Assembly (NCBI GenBank): GCA_028687425.1
Contig: JAQUAD010000014.1
Location: 1 to 52,042, forward strand
Direction: 5' to 3'
DNA length: 52,042 nt
Origin: Sideroxydans sp.
Lineage (GTDB): Bacteria; Pseudomonadota; Gammaproteobacteria; Burkholderiales; Gallionellaceae
A program made the position numbers and the translations under genes. This document shows, piece by piece, positions 5,968 through 46,441 of the stretch (position 1 is the stretch's first letter; every line of letters starts with the position of its first letter). The notes beneath the pieces were generated by a model. The model was not told the origin of the DNA. It ran no database searches and saw only the letters and a list, made by a program, of their open reading frames with translations.

Positions 5968-5987
5968 CTTTCTAGTAATTCAAAAAC

Positions 5988-6548
5988 AAAACCGTCGGGG
6001 GTGGCCCGACAGCCAGTCACTTTTCTTGTCTTGCCAAGAAAAGTAACCAAAAGAAGTCGCCCCCGGTGCACCGCCCCTTCGGGGTTCCCTGCGTTGCTCG
6101 ACTGGTCAGGCGGCTGCGGAACTCGCGCTTCGCGCTCAGACAGTCCTCGCCGACTTCCCCTGACCAGTCTCCGCTACTCGGCGGACGCACAGGGGATAGA
6201 AATTCAAAACCTGAAAACCAAAGTCCAAAGCCAACCCGTGATGCGGGCGTTGCCCGCATCACCAAACCAAAACAAAGAGGCGTGCGCAAAGCGCACACAA
6301 GACCGCCTTTGACCTTCCCTCCCTTGAGCGCCGCCGAGTAGCGCAGGACGGGCGGGGGCAGTCCGACGAATATGTTTGAGCACGTGGCCGCGCAGCGGAT
6401 CGTGCGAGTTTATGAGGAGGCCCGACCGTTCGAGCAACGCAGGGTACCCACGTAGTGGGCGGCAAACCAGGGGCGCCTTTTCTTTGGTTACTTTCTTTTG
6501 GCGAAGCAAAAGAAAGTAACTTGCTGTCGGGCAACACCCGACGGTTTT
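5988..6548. repeat. Long inverted repeat of an extragenic element (two head-to-head copies)
   Basis: The arms 5988-6100 and 6431-6548 are inverted copies. Shared blocks include AAAACCGTCGGG at the outer ends, AAGTAACCAAA in the middle and CCCTGCGTTGCTCG at the inner ends (6087-6100 versus 6431-6444). Weaker similarity (GCTACTCGGCGG) continues to about 6185 and 6325, leaving a small unique core. Each arm has its own hairpin; the right one is a 14-bp perfect stem at about 6487-6520. No transposase is visible. Open frames across it have low-complexity basic translations and I do not call them genes. From memory, similar KVTKxK-encoding repeats occur between genes in many proteobacteria. Confidence 0.75.
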
Positions 6549-6611
6549 GAAGTTAAATATTTACTGCGCAATGCCATTTGGCTATTGCACCCTGCGCGAG
6601 CAAAATATGGC
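6549..6611 (+). pseudogene. Possible third, highly decayed VF530 3' remnant
   Basis: Just outside the right arm of the inverted repeat the plus strand can be read KYLLRNAIW...ARAKYGGK. Shared pieces TGAAGTT, CTGCGCA, TTGG and GCGAG in the same order as the intact VF530 tail suggest a very eroded copy with small insertions. The match is weak and could be chance. It overlaps the 3' end of the neighbouring minus-strand membrane gene. Confidence 0.25.
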
Positions 6612-31654: not shown

Positions 31655-31670
31655 CCGCGCGCCGTTCAAA

Positions 31671-31830
31671 CCGATGGGAGAGTGTGCTGAAAAGCACCGC
31701 CGAAGGCGTAACACCCGCAACCGCTCAGGCCACAAGAACTATCGGGACAGGCAAATCTGGAGAGCGCTGTTGAATCAGCCACCGAAGGGGCACGCGGATA
31801 TTCCGTAATCTCTCAGGTACCAAGGACAGA
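31671..31830 (+). ncRNA. Tandem glycine riboswitch
   Basis: Two glycine aptamers are visible. The first spans about 31671-31745: P1 strands CCGAT/ATCGG enclose GGGAGAGTGTGC and the ACCGCCGAAGG core. A short linker follows, then the second aptamer at 31756-31830, with P1 TCTG/CAGA enclosing GGAGAGCGCTG, ACCGAAGGGGCA and CTCTCAGG. These are the conserved elements of the family. The riboswitch sits between a TATAAT and a terminator in front of gcvT, so glycine binding most likely permits expression of the cleavage system. Confidence 0.93.
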
Positions 31831-31833
31831 TGG

Positions 31834-31863
31834 GGGCGAGGCTATGTGGCCTCGCCCTTTTTT
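31834..31863 (+). terminator. Riboswitch-controlled terminator upstream of gcvT
   Basis: A nine-bp stem (31834-31842 with 31849-31857) and a six-base loop are followed by six T bases. It starts four bases after the second aptamer and 19 bases before gcvT, so it probably acts as the expression platform. Confidence 0.8.
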
Positions 31864-37913: not shown

Positions 37914-38918
37914 GTGCTGACCTGGTTGCAACTGCTGCTGTGTCTGGCCATCATCGGCTATGCCGGCTACTACCTGTCGCGCTACGGCGACATCATCGCC
38001 GAGAAAACCGGCATGTCGTCGTCCTGGATAGGTCTGCTGCTGCTCTCCACCGCCACCTCGCTGCCGGAACTGGTGACCGGCCTGTCCTCCGTCACCGCAG
38101 CCGACACACCGGACATCGCCGTGGGTGACGTGCTCGGTAGCACCGTCTTCAACCTCGCCATACTGGTCATGCTGGACGCGTTGTATCGCACGGAGACGCT
38201 GTACAGTCGCGCAGCACAGGGCCACATCCTGTCTGCTTCGCTGGGCATATTGCTGATCGCCTTTGCCGGATTCAGCCTGCTGCTGGAACGCGGCAGCATG
38301 AGTCCCTCCATCGCACACATCGGCCTGTACACGCCGCTCATCATCGCGGTCTATCTGGTGTCCATGCGCGCGGTCTACAGCTACGAACAACGCACCCTGT
38401 CCACCTACGCGGAAGAAGCAGCCGAACGCTATCCCGAAGTAACGCTGCGCAGCGCAATCAAGGGCTATGCGCAATCTGCGCTGGCCGTGGTGCTCGCAGG
38501 TTCCTGGCTGCCCTTCGTCGCGCATGACATCTCGGACATGATGGGCTGGGGACAGAGCTTCGTCGGCACGCTGCTGGTGGCCGCCGTCACCTCCGCGCCC
38601 GAAGCCGCCGTCACACTTTCCGCCTTGCGCATCGGCGCGCTCGACATGGCCATTGCCAACCTGCTGGGCAGCAACCTGTTCGACATCTTCATCCTCGCCA
38701 TCGACGACCTGTTCTATACCAAAGGCCCGCTGCTGGCACATGTGGATGCCAGCCATGCGCTGACCGCGCTCACCGCCGTGATGATGAGCACGCTGGTGAT
38801 CGTCGGGCTGGTGTTCCGCCCGCAGGGCCGTGTGGTGCTCGGGCTGACCTGGATCAGCCTCGGCCTGCTGATGTTGTACGTCCTCAACTCATGGTTACTG
38901 TTCGAACATGCACACTGA
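37914..38918 (+). CDS. Calcium/sodium:cation antiporter (CaCA family)
   Basis: The 334-residue protein has about ten membrane spans and the two inverted alpha repeats of the CaCA superfamily: LLLLSTATSLPELVTG near residue 42 and VAAVTSAPEAAVTLSAL near residue 224. Both contain the key Glu of the cation site. YrbG and NCX-type proteins exchange Ca2+ for Na+ or H+. The start is a GTG with a GAG-type site. Its 3' end overlaps the following P-type ATPase gene by 11 bases, so the pair is probably translated together. Confidence 0.85.
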   Translation: MLTWLQLLLCLAIIGYAGYYLSRYGDIIAEKTGMSSSWIGLLLLSTATSLPELVTGLSSVTAADTPDIAVGDVLGSTVFNLAILVMLDALYRTETLYSRAAQGHILSASLGILLIAFAGFSLLLERGSMSPSIAHIGLYTPLIIAVYLVSMRAVYSYEQRTLSTYAEEAAERYPEVTLRSAIKGYAQSALAVVLAGSWLPFVAHDISDMMGWGQSFVGTLLVAAVTSAPEAAVTLSALRIGALDMAIANLLGSNLFDIFILAIDDLFYTKGPLLAHVDASHALTALTAVMMSTLVIVGLVFRPQGRVVLGLTWISLGLLMLYVLNSWLLFEHAH

Positions 38919-41523
38919 ACCCAGACACTGGCACACACTGTCGCCTGCCGAGGCCGCAGAGACCTTGCACACCGATGCCGCACAAGGCCTGAGCGACAGC
39001 GAGGTCGCGCATCGCACTGCGCACTACGGCCCCAATGCGCTGCGCGAGAAACAGGCGCGCTCGCACTGGCGCATGCTGCTCGACCAGTTCTCCGACTTCA
39101 TGATCATCGTGCTGATCGTCGCGGCCATCGTGTCCGGCTTCGTCGGCGATGTCGAAGACACCGTCGCCATCATCGTCATCGTCATCCTCAATGCGGTGAT
39201 CGGCTTCGTGCAGGAATACCGCGCCGAACAAGCCATGGCTGCGCTCAAGCGCATGTCGGAAGCCAGCGCCAGCGTAATGCGCGCAGGCCACATCGAAAGC
39301 ATCGCCGCCTCGGAACTGGTGCCCGGCGATGTGGTGCTGCTGGAAGCAGGCAACATCGTGCCTGCCGACCTGCGCATCATCGAAGCAGCGCGCTTGCGCA
39401 TAGACGAATCCGCGCTCACCGGCGAATCGGTCGCGGTGGAGAAACAGGTGTTGTCGCAGGAAGCTGCCGAACTGCCGCTGGGCGACCGCACCTGCCTCGC
39501 CTACAAGGGCACCATCGTCACCGATGGCCGTGCGCGCGGACTGGTCACGGCCACCGGCATGCAGACCGAACTCGGCAAGATCGCCGCCCTGCTCGACCAG
39601 GACAACGAGACGCGCACGCCGCTGCAACAACGCCTCGCCAGCTTCGGCAAATACCTGGCACTGGCCGCACTGGCGATCTGCGGCATCGTGTTCGTGGTCG
39701 GCGTGTTGCGCGGCGAACCGTTGTTGCTGATGTTCATGACCGCAGTCAGTCTCGCCGTCGCCGCCATCCCCGAAGCCTTGCCCGCCGTGGTCACCATCTC
39801 GCTGGCGCTGGGCGCCCGCAAGATGGTGCAGCAACACGCATTGATCCGCCGCCTGCCCGCAGTGGAGACGCTGGGCTCGGTGACACACATCTGCTCCGAC
39901 AAGACCGGCACCCTCACCCAGAACCGCATGCACGTCAGCGCAATGTTCGTGGTCGATGCCACGGATGAAAGTCATGCCGCGTGGCCGTCGCTGTACAGCG
40001 CACTGAGCCTGTGCAACGACGCGCACATGGATGCACACGGCAAGGCACGCGGCGAACCGACCGAAGCCGCATTGCTGTTGGCCGCGCATGAAGCCGGATG
40101 GGAACGCGCTGCGCTGGAACAGACTGCACCGCGCGTGAAGGAACTGCCCTTCGATTCCGAACGCAAACGCATGACCACCTTCCATCGCGATGCAGATAAC
40201 TTCATCGCCTACAGCAAGGGCTCGCCCGAATCGCTGCTGCCATGCTGCACGCAGATGCTGAGCGCAAACGGCGAGCAGGACATTGATCGCGATGCCTTGC
40301 TGCAACAAGCGGAACGCATGGCGAGCGAAGGGCTGCGCGTGCTTGCTTTCGCCTGCCGTCGCTGGCCGACCTTGCCCGAGTCCGACGCGCACGAGACGCT
40401 GGAACAGGAACTGCTCTTCCTCGGTTTCGCGGGGCTGATCGACCCGCCGCGCAGCGAAGTGAAGACTGCGGTGCACGCCTGCAGACAAGCGGGCATCACG
40501 CCGGTGATGATCACCGGCGACCACCCGGCCACGGCACGCGCCATCGCGAAAGAACTGGGCATACTCGACGACGGCCGCGTGATGACCGGCGTGGAACTGG
40601 CGGCACTGTCGCAGGAAGAATTCGAGACGCAGGTGAAACAGGTCAGCGTCTATGCGCGCGTCGATCCCGCGCAGAAGATCAGGATCGTGCAGGCCTTGCA
40701 GGACAAGGGCGAAGTGGTGGCGATGACCGGCGACGGCGTGAACGATGCGCCTGCCTTGAAGGCTGCCGACATCGGCGTCGCCATGGGCAAGGGCGGCACC
40801 GACGTGGCGCGCGAAGCGGCGCACATGGTGCTGCTGGACGACAACTTCGCGTCCATCGTGCATGCGGTGAAACAGGGGCGGCGCATCTTCGACAACATTC
40901 GCAAGTTCATCAAATACACCATGACCAGCAACGCGGGCGAGATCTGGACCATCTTCCTCGCGCCCTTCCTCGGCCTGCCCATCCCGCTGCTGCCCATCCA
41001 CATCCTGTGGATCAACCTGGTCACCGACGGGCTGCCGGGTCTGGCACTGACTGCCGAACCCGCCGAGCGCGGCATCATGCGCCGCCCGCCGCGCCCGCTG
41101 CGCGAAAGCATCTTCGCGCACGGCATGTGGCAACACATGATCTGGGTCGGCCTGTTGATGGGCGGCACTTGTCTGCTCACGCAAGCCTGGGCGATACAGA
41201 GCGGCAGCGCACACTGGCAGACCATGGTGTTCACCGTGCTCACGCTGTCGCAGATGGGCCATGTGCTGGCGATACGCAGCGAGACGGATTCGCTGTTCCG
41301 CGTCGGCCTGTTCTCCAACCGCATGCTGGCCTTCGCCGTGCTGCTCACCTTCGCCTTGCAGATGGCGACCATCTACGTGCCCGCGCTCAATCCCATCTTC
41401 AAGACCGAAGCGCTGAGCATGGGCGAACTGGCGATCTGCCTCGCCATGTCCAGCGTGGTGTTCTTTGCGGTGGAAGTGGAGAAGCTGTTGGTGCGGCGTG
41501 GGGTGCTTTATCGTGCGGCCTGA
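38908..41523 (+). CDS. P2A-type cation-transporting ATPase (probable Ca2+)
   Basis: The 871-residue protein has the full P-type layout: N-terminal domain, actuator TGES (LTGESVAVEK), M4 motif AIPEALPAVVT, phosphorylation site CSDKTGTLT with Asp331, and hinge MTGDGVNDAPALK. The overall pattern fits Ca2+-exporting P2A pumps related to PMR1 and bacterial SERCA-like ATPases, not copper or potassium pumps; no N-terminal metal-binding CxxC is seen. It overlaps the CaCA antiporter gene, so the cell appears to pair primary and secondary cation export. Confidence 0.88.
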   Translation: MHTEPRHWHTLSPAEAAETLHTDAAQGLSDSEVAHRTAHYGPNALREKQARSHWRMLLDQFSDFMIIVLIVAAIVSGFVGDVEDTVAIIVIVILNAVIGFVQEYRAEQAMAALKRMSEASASVMRAGHIESIAASELVPGDVVLLEAGNIVPADLRIIEAARLRIDESALTGESVAVEKQVLSQEAAELPLGDRTCLAYKGTIVTDGRARGLVTATGMQTELGKIAALLDQDNETRTPLQQRLASFGKYLALAALAICGIVFVVGVLRGEPLLLMFMTAVSLAVAAIPEALPAVVTISLALGARKMVQQHALIRRLPAVETLGSVTHICSDKTGTLTQNRMHVSAMFVVDATDESHAAWPSLYSALSLCNDAHMDAHGKARGEPTEAALLLAAHEAGWERAALEQTAPRVKELPFDSERKRMTTFHRDADNFIAYSKGSPESLLPCCTQMLSANGEQDIDRDALLQQAERMASEGLRVLAFACRRWPTLPESDAHETLEQELLFLGFAGLIDPPRSEVKTAVHACRQAGITPVMITGDHPATARAIAKELGILDDGRVMTGVELAALSQEEFETQVKQVSVYARVDPAQKIRIVQALQDKGEVVAMTGDGVNDAPALKAADIGVAMGKGGTDVAREAAHMVLLDDNFASIVHAVKQGRRIFDNIRKFIKYTMTSNAGEIWTIFLAPFLGLPIPLLPIHILWINLVTDGLPGLALTAEPAERGIMRRPPRPLRESIFAHGMWQHMIWVGLLMGGTCLLTQAWAIQSGSAHWQTMVFTVLTLSQMGHVLAIRSETDSLFRVGLFSNRMLAFAVLLTFALQMATIYVPALNPIFKTEALSMGELAICLAMSSVVFFAVEVEKLLVRRGVLYRAA

Positions 41524-41595
41524 TCGAAAGAGTTAGTCACCCACCAGCTAGTTAGTTCTTGGGGCTAGGTGTTGTAATCGGGCATGAAGCTATAT

Positions 41596-41609
41596 TGCAA
41601 GACCTGACC
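41596..41609 (-). repeat. 14-base motif shared with 43185-43198 (inverted)
   Basis: On the minus strand this reads GGTCAGGTCTTGCA, identical to the plus strand at 43185-43198. The two copies lie just outside and inside the cassette array. I recall similar motifs near REP-associated transposases, but no transposase is visible here. Confidence 0.3.
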
Positions 41610-41650
41610 ACGTGCTTGTACGGCATAGTCAGCCAGCAGCAGGGCAATGG

Positions 41651-41702
41651 AAGTAACGACGTGGGGCAAAAGGCCAGACCTGCCCCCGTAATCCAGTTAG
41701 CA
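41651..41702 (-). repeat. attC-like site E, after the DUF4145 gene
   Basis: On the minus strand GCTAAC opens the site and CGTTAC closes it, with arms ACGGGGGC and GCCCCACGT pairing. It begins ten bases after the DUF4145 stop. It is the most degenerate of the five sites. Confidence 0.5.
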
Positions 41703-41712
41703 GACATGGCGA

Positions 41713-42276
41713 CTAAGGCTTGGGAGTTGGAATCTTGCTAGGAAATTCGTAGATGAATTTCAGGAGCATTTCAGCAAATGAAATTAGCTCCGTAGCTTCT
41801 GCATTACTCATTAGTTTTATTTCGTGTGTTGCTTCATTTCCCTTGCTACGGATGTGGTCAACCCACGCACGGCCATTGGGTGGAACAAAGCCTGCGTTTG
41901 CAAGATGTTCAACGTAGGATACAAAAGTCGCACCTTCCTTTGCGCCATGGTTTACCGCAATATTCATTAGGAGTTTTCGGCAGGCTAAAACAGCTGCAGT
42001 AAATGCGTTTACTGAAACCGCTTGTCTTGCCTCGTTATAGAGCGATTCTATGTCAGCTGGCAGGTGCTGCACGGAGCTTCCGGGTGCCACACCGGGTACT
42101 TGTTTCGAGCCAATCATAAAAGAGGGGCCACCACAATGTGGGCAAATGTATATGAAGCCTTGATATCCGTTAGTTGTATCGTTTGTGAAATAACCTTGAG
42201 ATGAAGCAACTGTGCTGTTACAGAAACCGCACACAAATTTTCGTGACTCAATTGTAGTTTTGTTTTGCCACAGCAT
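41713..42276 (-). CDS. Zinc-finger plus DUF4145 (HEPN-like) protein
   Basis: The 187-residue protein has an N-terminal zinc finger (CGFCN near residue 16, CPHC near residue 46) and a C-terminal DUF4145 domain (about 85-180) with EARQAVSVNAFTAAVLACRK and RSKGNEATHEI. DUF4145 is related to the HEPN fold often seen in defence loci; here the Arg-to-His spacing is longer than the classic RNase motif, so catalysis is doubtful. The ATG at 42276 is preceded by AGAGGAA. Codons are AT-rich relative to neighbours. It reads as an integron cassette, flanked by attC-like sites D and E. Confidence 0.75.
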   Translation of the reverse strand: MLWQNKTTIESRKFVCGFCNSTVASSQGYFTNDTTNGYQGFIYICPHCGGPSFMIGSKQVPGVAPGSSVQHLPADIESLYNEARQAVSVNAFTAAVLACRKLLMNIAVNHGAKEGATFVSYVEHLANAGFVPPNGRAWVDHIRSKGNEATHEIKLMSNAEATELISFAEMLLKFIYEFPSKIPTPKP

Positions 42277-42293
42277 GATGTTCCTCTTTTGTT

Positions 42294-42355
42294 GGCTAAC
42301 GTTTGAGTTTGGCGGCGGCCCGCATGGGCCCATCCGCTGGGACGAATTGCTATGC
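42294..42355 (-). repeat. attC-like site D, after the small zinc-ribbon gene
   Basis: On the minus strand the site runs from GCATAGC to GTTAGCC. Inner arms GGCCC/GGGCC and outer GCGG/CCGC pair around a short loop, and CAAACGTTAGCC resembles the common attC 3' end. It begins 12 bases after the neighbouring stop. Confidence 0.65.
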
Positions 42356-42366
42356 AGGAGTTCTCG

Positions 42367-42612
42367 CTACTCACCATCTGTGTTGGTTCTGATGTTTAGC
42401 TTCCACTGAATTTTCCCCTGCGCAGTGGTGTGCTGATGGTGATTTTGAGGAGGAAACTTATCGCCTTTGTTCGAGGTGACTTCCTTTTTGCAAGCCAAGC
42501 ATTTGTAGATTCCAGAAACAGGAACTGCATCACTCGGATTGTATGTCGTCGTCCAATGAGCCCCTTCGCCCTTCACGTTATCAATTACAGAGTTTTTTGT
42601 GTACCAAGACAT
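42367..42612 (-). CDS. Small zinc-ribbon-like protein
   Basis: The 81-residue product has one CxxC pair (CLACKK) followed by KGDKFPPQNHHQH, where the His residues may complete a metal site. I recall small hypothetical proteins with a SGIYxCxxC...KGDxFPPQNHHQH pattern; no function is known to me. The ATG at 42612 has a strong AGGAGG site nine bases upstream, which supports a real gene despite its size. It lies between attC-like sites C and D, as a cassette. Confidence 0.65.
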   Translation of the reverse strand: MSWYTKNSVIDNVKGEGAHWTTTYNPSDAVPVSGIYKCLACKKEVTSNKGDKFPPQNHHQHTTAQGKIQWKLNIRTNTDGE

Positions 42613-42651
42613 ATCTTCCTCCTTTGTTAGAACTGCCACATTGAACATGTG

Positions 42652-42710
42652 GCATAACGTAAAAGTAACCAGCTCGCCGAAGGCGAGTCCGGTTGACTGC
42701 CGGGTTGGGG
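42652..42710 (-). repeat. attC-like site C, after the coiled-coil zinc-ribbon gene
   Basis: On the minus strand the site runs CCCCAAC ... GTTATGC. The arms AGTCAACCGG and CTGGTTACT pair imperfectly, and a perfect inner stem CTCGCC/GGCGAG closes on a TTC-rich loop. It begins seven bases past the stop of the upstream gene. Confidence 0.7.
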
Positions 42711-42717
42711 ACTGGCG

Positions 42718-43146
42718 TCATGACGGGAGACGACACATGACATCGCCAAGACCAATTCCCTTGAACGATGCGAACTGGCCGCATGACTTCTTTCCGCAGC
42801 GGAATAGCTCATGGCGCCCAGGAGAAACCATCGCAGTTTTGCAGCTTGGACAGTACGGCGTTTCATTCCACGTACCGTCGGCGTTTTTTCTGAATAGGGC
42901 ACCAGCCTCTTCAGCCCATTCTTGTTGGGCAGTTAGATAAGAGATCTTTTCTTCGAGTGCCATCCGTTGCTTTTGGCACTCTTCGTAATCAAGGCTAAGA
43001 CGTTCATTCTCCGACTGAAGCTGCGCTACTTGCTTCTGGAGTGCGGAATATTGGTCCGCCGCCAACGCAAGTCGCTCCTTGAGAATGACCGCAGAACCAT
43101 GCTCATTGATGAGACGCTCAATTTCAGAAAGGATGGGAATGCCCAT
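42718..43146 (-). CDS. Coiled-coil protein with C-terminal zinc ribbon
   Basis: The 142-residue protein opens GIPILSEIERLINEHGSA, has a coiled coil (about residues 30-75, LQKQVAQLQSENERLSLDY) and ends in a zinc ribbon with CPSC and CGKKSCG. I have seen similar small proteins in accessory DNA, but no function is established. The ATG at 43146 has AGGAGG at good spacing. It sits between attC-like sites B and C. Confidence 0.65.
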   Translation of the reverse strand: MGIPILSEIERLINEHGSAVILKERLALAADQYSALQKQVAQLQSENERLSLDYEECQKQRMALEEKISYLTAQQEWAEEAGALFRKNADGTWNETPYCPSCKTAMVSPGRHELFRCGKKSCGQFASFKGIGLGDVMCRLPS

Positions 43147-43166
43147 GTGGTACCTCCTGTGGCAGA

Positions 43167-43248
43167 GATTAACGAAGTGCTTAGGGTCAGGTCTTGCACG
43201 TTTGCTTGCTAGCAACTGAAGAGCACAAGGTGAAGCGCTATGTTAAAT
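43167..43248 (-). repeat. attC-like site B, overlapping the stop of the zinc-ribbon membrane gene
   Basis: On the minus strand the site opens ATTTAAC, a perfect RYYYAAC core that contains the upstream gene's TAA stop, and closes CGTTAATC. The arms TTAAC-N2-AGCGCTT and AAGCACT-N2-GTTAA pair. The centre carries the 14-base motif shared with 41596-41609. Confidence 0.7.
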
Positions 43249-43860
43249 TCGTGGCTCCCCCAACACAGTCGGGTCAAAATTCCAATAGTGATCTGGGTTT
43301 CGTGTACAGCGAACAATCGTGGTTCTGTTGTCTTTTTGGCCTACATCCCTCAGCTTTAGCACTCCATCGCACTTTGGGCATGAACCTTCGATCTTGGTGA
43401 TAAATATTTCACCAGATTTATTTGATTCAAAATTGATAAAGGGGGGCAACCTAGCAAAACGCGCGCTGTTTAATACGATTCCGACCACCAATGATATGCC
43501 ACTAAGCCCGAGCACCAGTAGCCAAAGATATTGAAAGGTGGTTGCCCATGCACTCCAAATACTAGCAACGCTACCAACTAAGCCCAGTACGCTAGAAACG
43601 ATTACCCAAGCAACCTTAACAGGATGCCCTCCTAATGTGATTGGGGCTGTCTTCACTCGGTCAATATATGCGACCGGCTCTCTATTTCCACCGCCAACAG
43701 AAATATTGTTGCCAGTGATGACGTTATTCTGTCCCGCATTGAAACTTTGATTGCCGGTGGCTGATGTGTTTTGAATTACACCTGAAGATAATGGTGATCC
43801 ACAGTTACGGCAAAAACGATCTTCAGTTTCGTGTTCCGTTCCGCATTTAGTGCAGTGCAT
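43243..43860 (-). CDS. Zinc-ribbon membrane protein
   Basis: The 205-residue protein opens with a zinc ribbon (CTKCG at residue 3, CRNCG near residue 17), then a low-complexity Asn/Gly stretch (GNQSFNAGQNNVITGNNIS, about 36-56), two hydrophobic segments (about 82-102 and 108-132) and a C-terminal region with CPKC and a later Cys/His set. It looks like a membrane-anchored protein with two metal sites; no function is recognised. Its stop codon falls inside attC-like site B, which is common for integron cassette genes. Confidence 0.65.
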   Translation of the reverse strand: MHCTKCGTEHETEDRFCRNCGSPLSSGVIQNTSATGNQSFNAGQNNVITGNNISVGGGNREPVAYIDRVKTAPITLGGHPVKVAWVIVSSVLGLVGSVASIWSAWATTFQYLWLLVLGLSGISLVVGIVLNSARFARLPPFINFESNKSGEIFITKIEGSCPKCDGVLKLRDVGQKDNRTTIVRCTRNPDHYWNFDPTVLGEPRI

Positions 43861-43878
43861 GCGAATTACTCCATAAGT

Positions 43879-43942
43879 ATCTATCGTTTGTATTGAGGGA
43901 CAGCCTACTTCTGGGCTCCCCCTCTCGAATGATGGGTTCGGC
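43879..43942 (-). repeat. attC-like site A, after the KTSC-like gene
   Basis: On the minus strand the site begins GCCGAAC immediately after the TAA stop and ends GATAGAT, one base from the GTTRRRY core. The arms ATTCGAGAGGGGGAGCC and GGCTGTCCCTCAAT pair imperfectly. The flanking CCCATCATTC and CAAACGATAGAT closely resemble textbook attC ends. Confidence 0.7.
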
Positions 43943-44173
43943 TTACCACTTTTTGGCGTAATTATTTTTTATGGTTGTAGATATGTACGAGTTCAAGCCA
44001 TAACCTTGAGCAGCCAAAGCTTTCATTCTGTCAACATCCGCCTTGCCAGGACGAAAATTGTTGTAGAGATAATTGCGATGTGTTCCGGATTTAAAAACCA
44101 CGTGGATTGAGTCTTCGGTTATTTCGTATGAAACGATATTGGAATTGCCATGAAGGTTTCGGTACGGCGTCAT
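43943..44173 (-). CDS. KTSC-like small protein
   Basis: The 76-residue product has the order SNIVSYEITEDSIHVVFKSG, then YLYNNFRPGKADVDRMKALA and GYGLNSYIS, which fits the KTSC-type small domain. The function is unknown. AGAGAG lies upstream of the ATG as a weak ribosome-binding site. It is the first cassette of the array on this strand, with a possible boundary GCTAAAT about 20 bases before the start. Confidence 0.6.
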   Translation of the reverse strand: MTPYRNLHGNSNIVSYEITEDSIHVVFKSGTHRNYLYNNFRPGKADVDRMKALAAQGYGLNSYISTTIKNNYAKKW

Positions 44174-44488
44174 TAAACATCTCTCTTTCGATATTTAGCC
44201 TACTTAAGTAGCCCCCTCACAATCCTGCAAAGTACACCATCCGGATTTATCAATCAGGCAAACCTTGGATTACGCGTGTATGAATTGTGTGGACTTTCAT
44301 CTTTACCGATGCGAACCGTAAACGTGGCGAGTCGGCACGTCAACGATTTCGATGGCCTATATATTTTTGCCAGCCTGAGGTTCAAGGGGTGTGGTGGCAG
44401 AAGTGAAGGCTACCCTCTCCCCCAGCCCCTCCCCCGCGCACGGGGGAGGGGAGTTTTCGTGTGATTTTTGGGCGGTAGTTGCCGAGGA
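44174..44488. other. Intergenic region beyond the cassette array
   Basis: No gene is convincing. It contains a possible cassette boundary (minus-strand GCTAAAT at 44199-44193) and the palindrome CTACTTAAGTAG next to it, an unassigned segment to about 44390, and the GC-rich palindrome at 44426-44451. No integrase or attI is recognised. Confidence 0.5.
44426..44451. repeat. GC-rich palindrome downstream of amylosucrase
   Basis: A ten-bp perfect stem (44426-44435 with 44442-44451) with a six-base loop is followed on the plus strand by AGTTTT. It lies past the amylosucrase stop and may act as a terminator, but its sequence type also matches dispersed GC-rich palindromes such as that inside leuS. 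Confidence 0.65.
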
Positions 44489-46441
44489 TTAATCGGCCAG
44501 CCAGCAGCAGGTCAGGGCGGGTATGGTGATGGCGTCCTCTTCGACCTCGACACGCATGCCGCTGCATAACTCACGCATCGGACTGTGGCCGAAGAAACCG
44601 TAGGGACGCAGCACTTCCAGCATCAGTGACTGTGGTTCGTTATTGAAATTCGCCACCACCAGCACCCGGTTGCGCGGCGATGTCGGATCGCTGCGCACGA
44701 ATACCAGCAGGTTGGGATTTTCCACGAACACCTGCTGCCGGTTGTCGAAGTCGGCGAAAGCGGAAAGCTCCTTGCGTAACGCGATCATCTTCTTCAATCC
44801 GTTGAAGATGCGCTGCTCTACCGAGCCTTGCTTGTGGCGCAACTCCGCCTTGTTCCAGTCGAAGCTGGAGCGGTGTGCCCAGCGTGAGTCATTGCGTTTG
44901 ACCGGGTCGGCCATGTATTCCACATTGTTCAGCATGCCGATGCCGTCGCCGTAATACAGCAGCGGGATGCCGCCGAACGACAGGATGATGCTGTGCAGCA
45001 GCAGGATGGTGCGGATGGCTGCATCGATCGCCGCTTCATCGCCGGATGCGATGGCAGCCTCCAGACCGGCCAGTGACGCGAGCGAGCCGGAGATGCGCGC
45101 ATCGCCGGTTTTGGGGTTTTCGCCGAACGGCAGGCCGCGTGCGGGCGAGCCTGCGAAGCGGCCGGTGAAGTAATCGATCAGGAAGCGGCGGTGGCTGTAG
45201 GGATCGTAACCGGCGAGCACGGCATCCTTGTCGTCGAAGCCGAGACCGATGTCGTCATGGCAGCGCACGTAGTTGAGCCAGGTGGCGCGCTCCAGTTTGG
45301 CGGGCAGGTGTTGCACGCCGAGGTTGAGCAGCTTGGCGTTCTTGGTCGCCACCGCATCCCACAGCAAAGCCATCAGCGTGGCGTTGTAGGCGATCTCGCA
45401 TTCCTTGGCCATGATCGCGTCATCGCCGAAATACTTGGTGATCTCGCCCGGCGCGACGATGGCTTCAGCGATGAACAGCACGCCGGGCGCGGTGACCTGA
45501 CAACAGTCCTTCATCAGCTGCAACAGCAGGTGCGCTTCGCGTTCGTTCTGGCAGGTGCTGCCGATCTTCTTCCACAGGAAGGCCACCGCATCCATGCGCA
45601 GAATATCGACACCCTTGTTGGCCCAGAACAGGATGATGTCTACCATCTCGATGAACACCGCTGGGTTGCGGTAGTTCAGGTCCCACTGGTAGTTGTTGAA
45701 CACCGTCATCACCCACTTGCCCATGGCCTCGTCCCAGGTGAAGTTGCCGGGCGCGGTGTTGGGGAATATCTCCGGCATGCCTTCTTCGAATGCGTCCGGC
45801 ATCTCGCGGTCCTTGAACACGTAGTAGTAGTCCTGAAACTTCTTGTCGCCGGCGCGCGCCAGCTTGGCCCATACATGTTCGTCCGAGGTGTGGTTCACCA
45901 CCACGTCCAGCACCAGCAGCATCTCGCGTTTCTTCAACGTGGCGGCCAGCGCTTCCAGATCCGCGTTGCTGCCGAAGCGCGCGTCCACCTTGTGAAAGTC
46001 GCGCACTGCATAGCCGCCGTCGCTGGCGCCCTCCGGGCAGTCGAGGATGGGCATCACGTGCACCATGTTCACGCCCAGTTCCTGCAAGTAGGGCAGCTTC
46101 TTGCGCAGCCCTTTCAGGTCGCCCGCGAAGCGGTCGCAATACAGCGCCATGCCCACCCACTGCTGATGCAGGAACCAGTTGTAATCACGCTCGCGCACTA
46201 GGTCGGACTTGCGCAGGTGCGGTGCGCGTTCGATGTAGCGCTGCGCCAGTGTCTCGACCAGGCTGACCATCTGCGACTTGAAGTCGGACCGGTCGCCGTA
46301 CAGGTGGTGGAACAGGGTGTAGATGTTGTAGAAGTTCGCGCCGAGCCGGGTATAGAAATGACGCAGGCGCAGCTTGCCGATCTCGGGATTCAGCTCGGCG
46401 AGGATCTCGTTCAACATCGCATGTGAGGCTTGTTCGTACAT
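44489..46441 (-). CDS. ams: Amylosucrase (GH13)
   Basis: The 650-residue protein is a GH13 enzyme of the amylosucrase type. The nucleophile is in GVDILRMDAVAFLWK, the acid in LFIAEAIV, and the transition-state stabilising pair in NYVRCHDDIG. Amylosucrase transfers glucose from sucrose to an alpha-glucan and releases fructose. The N-terminal helical domain and the 280-residue region LDLYR-like QWDLNYRNPAV also fit. It is the last gene of the sucrose operon, nine bases after the phosphatase gene; its fructose product can be used by the fructokinase encoded first. Confidence 0.9.
   Translation of the reverse strand: MYEQASHAMLNEILAELNPEIGKLRLRHFYTRLGANFYNIYTLFHHLYGDRSDFKSQMVSLVETLAQRYIERAPHLRKSDLVRERDYNWFLHQQWVGMALYCDRFAGDLKGLRKKLPYLQELGVNMVHVMPILDCPEGASDGGYAVRDFHKVDARFGSNADLEALAATLKKREMLLVLDVVVNHTSDEHVWAKLARAGDKKFQDYYYVFKDREMPDAFEEGMPEIFPNTAPGNFTWDEAMGKWVMTVFNNYQWDLNYRNPAVFIEMVDIILFWANKGVDILRMDAVAFLWKKIGSTCQNEREAHLLLQLMKDCCQVTAPGVLFIAEAIVAPGEITKYFGDDAIMAKECEIAYNATLMALLWDAVATKNAKLLNLGVQHLPAKLERATWLNYVRCHDDIGLGFDDKDAVLAGYDPYSHRRFLIDYFTGRFAGSPARGLPFGENPKTGDARISGSLASLAGLEAAIASGDEAAIDAAIRTILLLHSIILSFGGIPLLYYGDGIGMLNNVEYMADPVKRNDSRWAHRSSFDWNKAELRHKQGSVEQRIFNGLKKMIALRKELSAFADFDNRQQVFVENPNLLVFVRSDPTSPRNRVLVVANFNNEPQSLMLEVLRPYGFFGHSPMRELCSGMRVEVEEDAITIPALTCCWLAD

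Follow-up and report, generated by a model that had tools for sequence, protein, structure and literature searches.

How does a row of gene cassettes come to stand on a chromosome with no integrase beside it? The question is raised by a 52,042-nucleotide stretch of a Sideroxydans sp. genome (JAQUAD010000014.1, contig C12; hereafter the window, meaning the whole stretch that was analyzed), in which five consecutive small genes occupy the minus strand at 41713-44173. A reading made earlier from the letters alone (the sequence-only reading) had proposed that each of these genes is followed by an attC recombination site, and that together they form a cluster of attC sites lacking an integrase (CALIN) or the tail of a larger integron. 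We find that the array is very probably a small, ageing CALIN with no integrase nearby, put together by integron recombination acting on attC sites. Its identification as a CALIN is solid, because at least three attC lie on one strand, the contig has no match to the integron integrase model TIGR02249, and host genes are present on both sides. CALINs could originate in two ways: they may be integrons that have degraded, or an integrase encoded elsewhere may have captured the cassettes at unusual sites. Both alternatives are testable at this locus because it combines a nearly empty site in relatives, an intact resident integron integrase (IntI), and, ahead of the first cassette, a leader block that links it to attI leaders.

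The insertion and its attC sites

The gene-cassette array is contained in 2965 bp of inserted DNA that separate two convergent host genes (Table 1), in a genome of 2.79 Mb distributed over 119 contigs. The ends of the left gene and of the ATPase gene on the right are 7 bp apart in G049 and G016, both of the relatives that have this gene pair, where the spacer reads ACGCAGG; at the two ends of the insertion, neither host gene end has been lost. Because the two neighbors are 7 bp apart in these relatives, it is unlikely that the array is the tail of a larger integron. At the remaining 11 syntenic loci that were fetched, blastn (E 1e-5) shows no ATPase gene beside the left gene, and these loci are therefore of no use as empty sites. 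The GC content is 47% in 41551-44210, compared with 60% for the window. The order and spacing of the five genes are as first described: the stop codon overlaps the proposed site or lies 0 to 11 bases from it, and the next start follows the site by about 17-39 bases.

A hand-written attC finder was too noisy, and covariance models were used instead. The first model (R1) was trained on rule-picked candidates beside intI of other genomes (22 of 46 kept, from eight genomes, window excluded), leaving out two likely false attC and near-duplicates; the known pairing of the R and L boxes with one extrahelical base was imposed on its alignment. The second model (R2) was built from 109 attC from 41 loci searched, again excluding the window, with loci elsewhere in this genome included. 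Of the five proposed sites, numbered from the head of the array, three were found by both models at their exact coordinates. With default filters, R1 gave three matches up to E 10 in the window, namely site 3 (42.3 bits, E 1.1e-7), site 1 (32.6 bits, E 2e-5), and site 4 (18.0 bits, E 0.044), and R2 gave the same three only (47.6, 26.6, and 20.4 bits, respectively). When aligned to 65 attC from elsewhere, sites 1, 3, and 4 score 49.5, 57.0, and 57.5, and none of 400 dinucleotide shuffles reaches any of the three (null maxima 18.5, 24.5, and 28.0). The L box of site 3 pairs fully and its R box in part, the L box of site 1 pairs, and several pairs are broken in site 4. These attC are thus clustered on one strand, with R and L box pairing and an extrahelical base; no integron integrase is nearby, and the intI that a complete integron has beside its array is absent here.

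As a check of specificity, R2 was run over 214 kb in 12 of the 13 syntenic loci of relatives and gave a single match (15.7 bits, E 0.42); the remaining locus, L078, was omitted because it carries an integron. R1 recovers attC of the resident integron that were absent from its training (four matches, 26-52 bits, one partial). Among 108 distinct attC, 89.3% of cells pair in the modeled structure and the L box pairs in 98.1%, while 160 cells are changed on both sides as opposed to 47.7 after shuffling, counts that lean towards the structure to which the alignment had been fitted. The core motif that had drawn attention to the site ends is less informative. Exact matches to GTTRRRY are not enriched in the window (48 found, 64.8 expected), so the motif alone proves nothing; on the cassette strand, no proposed site has such a match at its R' end, while the R'' end of site 2 coincides with one (43242-43248, plus strand).

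Table 1. Positions of the array, its sites and genes, and adjoining features in the window.
Feature	Coordinates	Strand	Basis or remark
Whole insertion	41524-44488	-	Between two convergent host genes
attC site 1, confirmed	43879-43942	-	R1, R2, shuffles; R' core GAT instead of GTT
Site 2, equivocal; perhaps an eroded attC with transposase-associated repeat motif	43167-43248	-	Models, shuffles, fold
Exact GGTCAGGTCTTGCA repeat motif inside site 2	43185-43198	+	Sequence scan
attC site 3, confirmed, strongest	42652-42710	-	R1, R2, shuffles
attC site 4, confirmed by similarity	42294-42355	-	R'' core AGC instead of AAC; several pairs broken
Proposed site 5, hairpin, unsupported as attC	41651-41702	-	Resembles GGGGTCAGGTCTTGC repeat
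Palindromic repeat	41559-41617	-	Also at distal end of C66 array; carries exact GGTCAGGTCTTGCA
Promoter-like leader block	44284-44368	-	TTGACG (44343-44338) N17 TACGGT (44320-44315); shared with attI leaders of G049 and G009
Possible eroded attI core (AGGGGGCTACTTAAGTAGGC)	44198-44217	-	Marginal similarity
GC-rich palindrome, resembling repetitive extragenic palindromes (REP-like)	44412-44455	.	Many matches through the genus
Cassette gene 1, 76 amino acids (aa)	43943-44173	-	KTSC-like by eye only
Cassette gene 2, 205 aa, zinc ribbon	43243-43860	-	Domain search; hydrophobic segments by eye
Cassette gene 3, 142 aa, coiled coil and zinc-ribbon-like end	42718-43146	-	Relatives by tblastn
Cassette gene 4, 81 aa, no assigned family	42367-42612	-	Open reading frame
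Cassette gene 5, 187 aa, DUF4145	41713-42276	-	DUF4145 E 4e-11; PADLOC model PD-T7-4 E 1e-8
Left host gene, GH13-type glucosidase/amylase-like protein	44489-46441	-	91-94% identity in six relatives
Right host gene, P-type ATPase	38908-41523	+	Calcium-type by best NCBIfam matches

Sites 2 and 5 are the two that the models did not confirm. Site 2 scores 4.5 bits with R1 (E 4.1) and 5.1 bits with R2 (E 8); in the comparison with known attC none of 400 shuffles reaches it, the margin being 21.5 against 20.0, and its bottom strand folds end to end in an attC-like manner, though 23 of 200 shuffles reach an equal or better fold. Site 5 is a good hairpin (z -2.51) that was missed by R1 and R2, and 9 of 400 shuffles equal or beat its score as an attC. 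The 14-base motif GGTCAGGTCTTGCA has three exact copies in the genome, two in this array and one on contig C6, and site 5 contains a three-mismatch version of it. In another genome (G046), a gene for an IS200-like transposase (Y1_Tnp, 23.0 bits, cut-off 23) is followed by the motif at a distance of about 12 bp, and the first part of the palindrome at 41559-41617 is also found near an IS200-like transposase gene there. These observations are the ground for an alternative in which each of the five hairpins would be a terminator or a palindromic repeat belonging to a transposase family, with the genes forming an ordinary island acquired by horizontal transfer: site 2 and the distal palindrome both hold the exact motif, site 5 has a likeness of it, and its placement in G046 ties it to a transposase. 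Sites 1, 3, and 4, however, do not contain the motif at up to three mismatches, and they match known attC beyond all shuffles and score in two attC models. For these three sites the alternative is largely refuted, and as an account of the whole array it is very unlikely; sites 2 and 5 may be terminators or transposase-family palindromes. The 59 bp shared by the distal ends of this array and of another array in the genome (on contig C66) were also considered as an array-end signal, which was rejected in favor of a transposase-associated palindrome.

The head of the array

A total of 315 bp of other DNA precede gene 1, including the leader block. In a search against fetched loci, the block (44368-44284) matches the leaders in G049:C134 and G009:C1 at E of about 1e-8 and 2e-7, and for the whole array head, none of 1000 shuffles reaches the similarity to those leaders. 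The arrangement TTGACG-N17-TACGGT is common to the heads in the window, G049, and G009. Among 158 family genomes, the block pattern occurs in four, once each, and the reversed control gives none. What follows the block in G009 and G049 is a region found adjoining intI in other genomes, where it ends ...TCTACTTTACG|TT before a variable cassette; this region is attI, and in G009 four attC lie downstream of it. The corresponding attI part is unrecognizable in the window: 11 and 14 of 1000 shuffles are as similar as the stretch that follows the block, which is thus only marginally similar, and 14 of 300 are as similar as the possible core. A dispersed repeat elsewhere in the window (5984-6550) is 84-91% identical to copies that immediately precede the attI leader in G009:C1.

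Resident integrase and origin of the array

The statement that no integrase is seen is true of the window and does not extend to the genome, in which a check outside the window located an intact IntI of 326 aa on contig C54 (TIGR02249, 499 bits, cut-off 265). This is the only contig with a match above the cut-off, and the contig of the window has no match at E 0.001. Four attC matches lie on the same contig; upstream of this intI stands ...GGCTACTTTACGTT, which is like the attI core of relatives, and from there cassettes run towards the contig end, which is within about 130 bp of the last recognized attC. The C54 integron and the window array are alike in that the same attC model fits both, whereas C54 has intI and an attI-like core and the window has neither intI nor a clear attI. 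Contig C78 may, as a guess, continue the C54 array, because its cassettes run inward from a contig end. A genome-wide scan with R1, in which 150 of 1769 candidates were scored, placed attC on C54, C78, C66, C5, C24, C37, and C62, with further clusters or single attC on C78, C5, C24, C37, and C62 (L108, L110, L111, L112, and L113). On C66 (L109:1-5500, G000:C66) there is a second array. It takes up 1775 bp between convergent genes whose spacing is only 1-3 bp in four of six relatives searched; the other two gave no match to both genes. By eye, one cassette gene of the C66 array is protease-like.

The window array would have been assembled from single-gene units by integron recombination at attC sites. 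The IntI of C54 would be able to recombine these attC in trans, and the cassettes would thereby be excisable or exchangeable; sites 1 and 4 may work poorly because their cores are damaged. The promoter-like block ahead of gene 1 is the probable start of transcription, which would continue through the array.

As for the origin of the array, a relict or moved integron platform that has lost its intI is mildly favored over stepwise capture of cassettes at non-attI sites, because the leader block ties the array to the attI leaders of related species. Under stepwise capture, the array would have been built in place by the resident IntI, inserting cassettes successively at an attG-type chromosomal site that was never an attI platform, and the result would also be a CALIN, with another origin. 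We regard this as possible but doubtful. Cassette insertion at attG chromosomal sites is reported by Loot et al. 2024 (cited in PMC12444791), the resident IntI is intact, and the insertion lies in a tiny convergent spacer with both gene ends preserved, as does the C66 array. The likeness to attG insertion as reportedly described by Loot et al. 2024 is that cassettes stand at a chromosomal site that is neither attC nor attI; the difference is that here the 315 bp before gene 1 hold a leader block shared with attI leaders. The spacer of the two relatives also contains neither GTT nor GAT as a putative attG triplet. A different possibility, that the array is the far end of the C54 integron and is set apart only by the fragmented assembly (119 contigs, with C54 stopping shortly after its last recognized attC), is extremely improbable: host genes stand on both sides of the array on one 52-kb contig and are adjacent in two relatives, and C78 is the better candidate for a continuation of C54. 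Tentatively, the relict platform may belong to a distributed integron, in which many scattered arrays, many with their own conserved attI and promoter and without intI, are served by one integrase in trans. The window array would then be an eroded member that has kept the promoter block and lost most of its attI.

Several observations weigh against reading the array as a CALIN that descends from such a platform. Two of the five proposed sites are unconfirmed, sites 1 and 4 carry mutations in their attC cores, the folding of site 4 is unremarkable (z +0.68), and site 2 alone among the sites pairs end to end in the fold. A hidden Markov model of attI gives no credible match in the window, the best being at chance level (E 3.3). 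Behind the block in G049 there is no attC at E 0.05 and one weak match (17.8 bits, E 0.078), and in G048 (L173:9346-9391) the block precedes an ordinary-looking gene; for these two reasons the block need not be part of an integron, and arrays may instead have recruited a regulated promoter of the host. Relatives of gene 3 were found at five loci by tblastn over genome contigs. At one of them (L179, a metagenome-assembled genome of Methylococcaceae), a 160-aa gene that shares only the first 60 residues of gene 3 (43% identity) is a one-gene cassette in a four-attC array, starting 18 bp after one attC and ending 108 bp before the next, which speaks for the CALIN reading. Against it, no attC match lies near the other four, which are the only full-length relative (L178, 42%) and three partial ones. 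A DNA search of 33 other genus genomes (at most the best eight candidates in each, mostly dispersed repeats) returned no near-identical cassette copy, and recent mobility of the cassettes is therefore unsupported. The assembly is also fragmented.

The wider family offers a clue to the origin of CALINs, in the form of attI loci without intI. Leader matches to attI occur in 53 of 100 family genomes, with at most the best seven candidates scored per genome. For 30 attI loci (L139-L168), comprising the best locus in each of 30 genomes, 1.5 kb upstream were examined for intI: a near-full-length gene (312 aa or more aligned) adjoins attI at 14 loci, only an N-terminal stub of 42-90 aa at three, and none is present at 13. 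At ten of the 13, attC lie downstream and point the same way; one of the other three has just 118 bp of searchable sequence. G015 has four attI matches and one intI (E 1e-30), and attC also follow its three orphan copies, the third of which is short with a single attC; G105, which is a single contig, has five attI copies and only a broken intI remnant. Because of the N-terminal stubs beside attI, loss of intI from platforms is favored as one route to CALINs. Such attached attI remnants could separate the two proposed origins, genome by genome. Within the genus, attC matches at E 0.001 occur in 20 of 21 genomes (at least 90% complete, this one included, 150 candidates each).

IntegronFinder 2.0 defines a CALIN as a run of two or more attC that lacks an integron integrase, proposes that such elements are degraded integrons, and does not detect attI outside class 1 (PMC9024848). 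The window array fits this definition; beyond it come the almost empty site in relatives, the leader block, and an intI residing on another contig. According to a study of Xanthomonas, CALINs occur away from the intI locus in about half of the genomes and are mobilizable in trans (PMC12444791). The array is thus a genuine element of an already known and fairly common type. Like the Xanthomonas CALINs located away from ilvD, it stands apart from the intI locus of the same chromosome; their positions are relatively conserved between species, whereas neither relative with the gene pair has an insertion at this locus. The Delta-attI-type cassettes described in PMC12901181 similarly place attI pieces away from intI, but those are resistance cassettes of mobile integrons, while the leaders in the relatives considered here are chromosomal and head whole arrays. 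Our literature search found nothing on Gallionella integron cassettes or on orphan, multiple, or additional attI, although attI-headed CALINs may still be published.

Cassette genes and neighboring features

Of the domains first named for the cassettes, DUF4145 was recovered in gene 5 and a zinc ribbon in gene 2; the KTSC-like assignment of gene 1 has no Pfam match at E 0.1. By sequence, gene 5 resembles a phage-defense model (PD-T7-4); a plasmid search with this gene returned only distant relatives (seven records, all under 60% identity). PADLOC coiled-coil matches for gene 3 were discounted. The end of the relatives' ATPase gene shares 9 bases with attC 1, a match that was set aside on a rough estimate. 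At Rfam gathering thresholds nothing was found in the array, and the only match in the window is to the glycine riboswitch, with tandem aptamers at 31665-31839 on the plus strand (57.2 and 50.8 bits).

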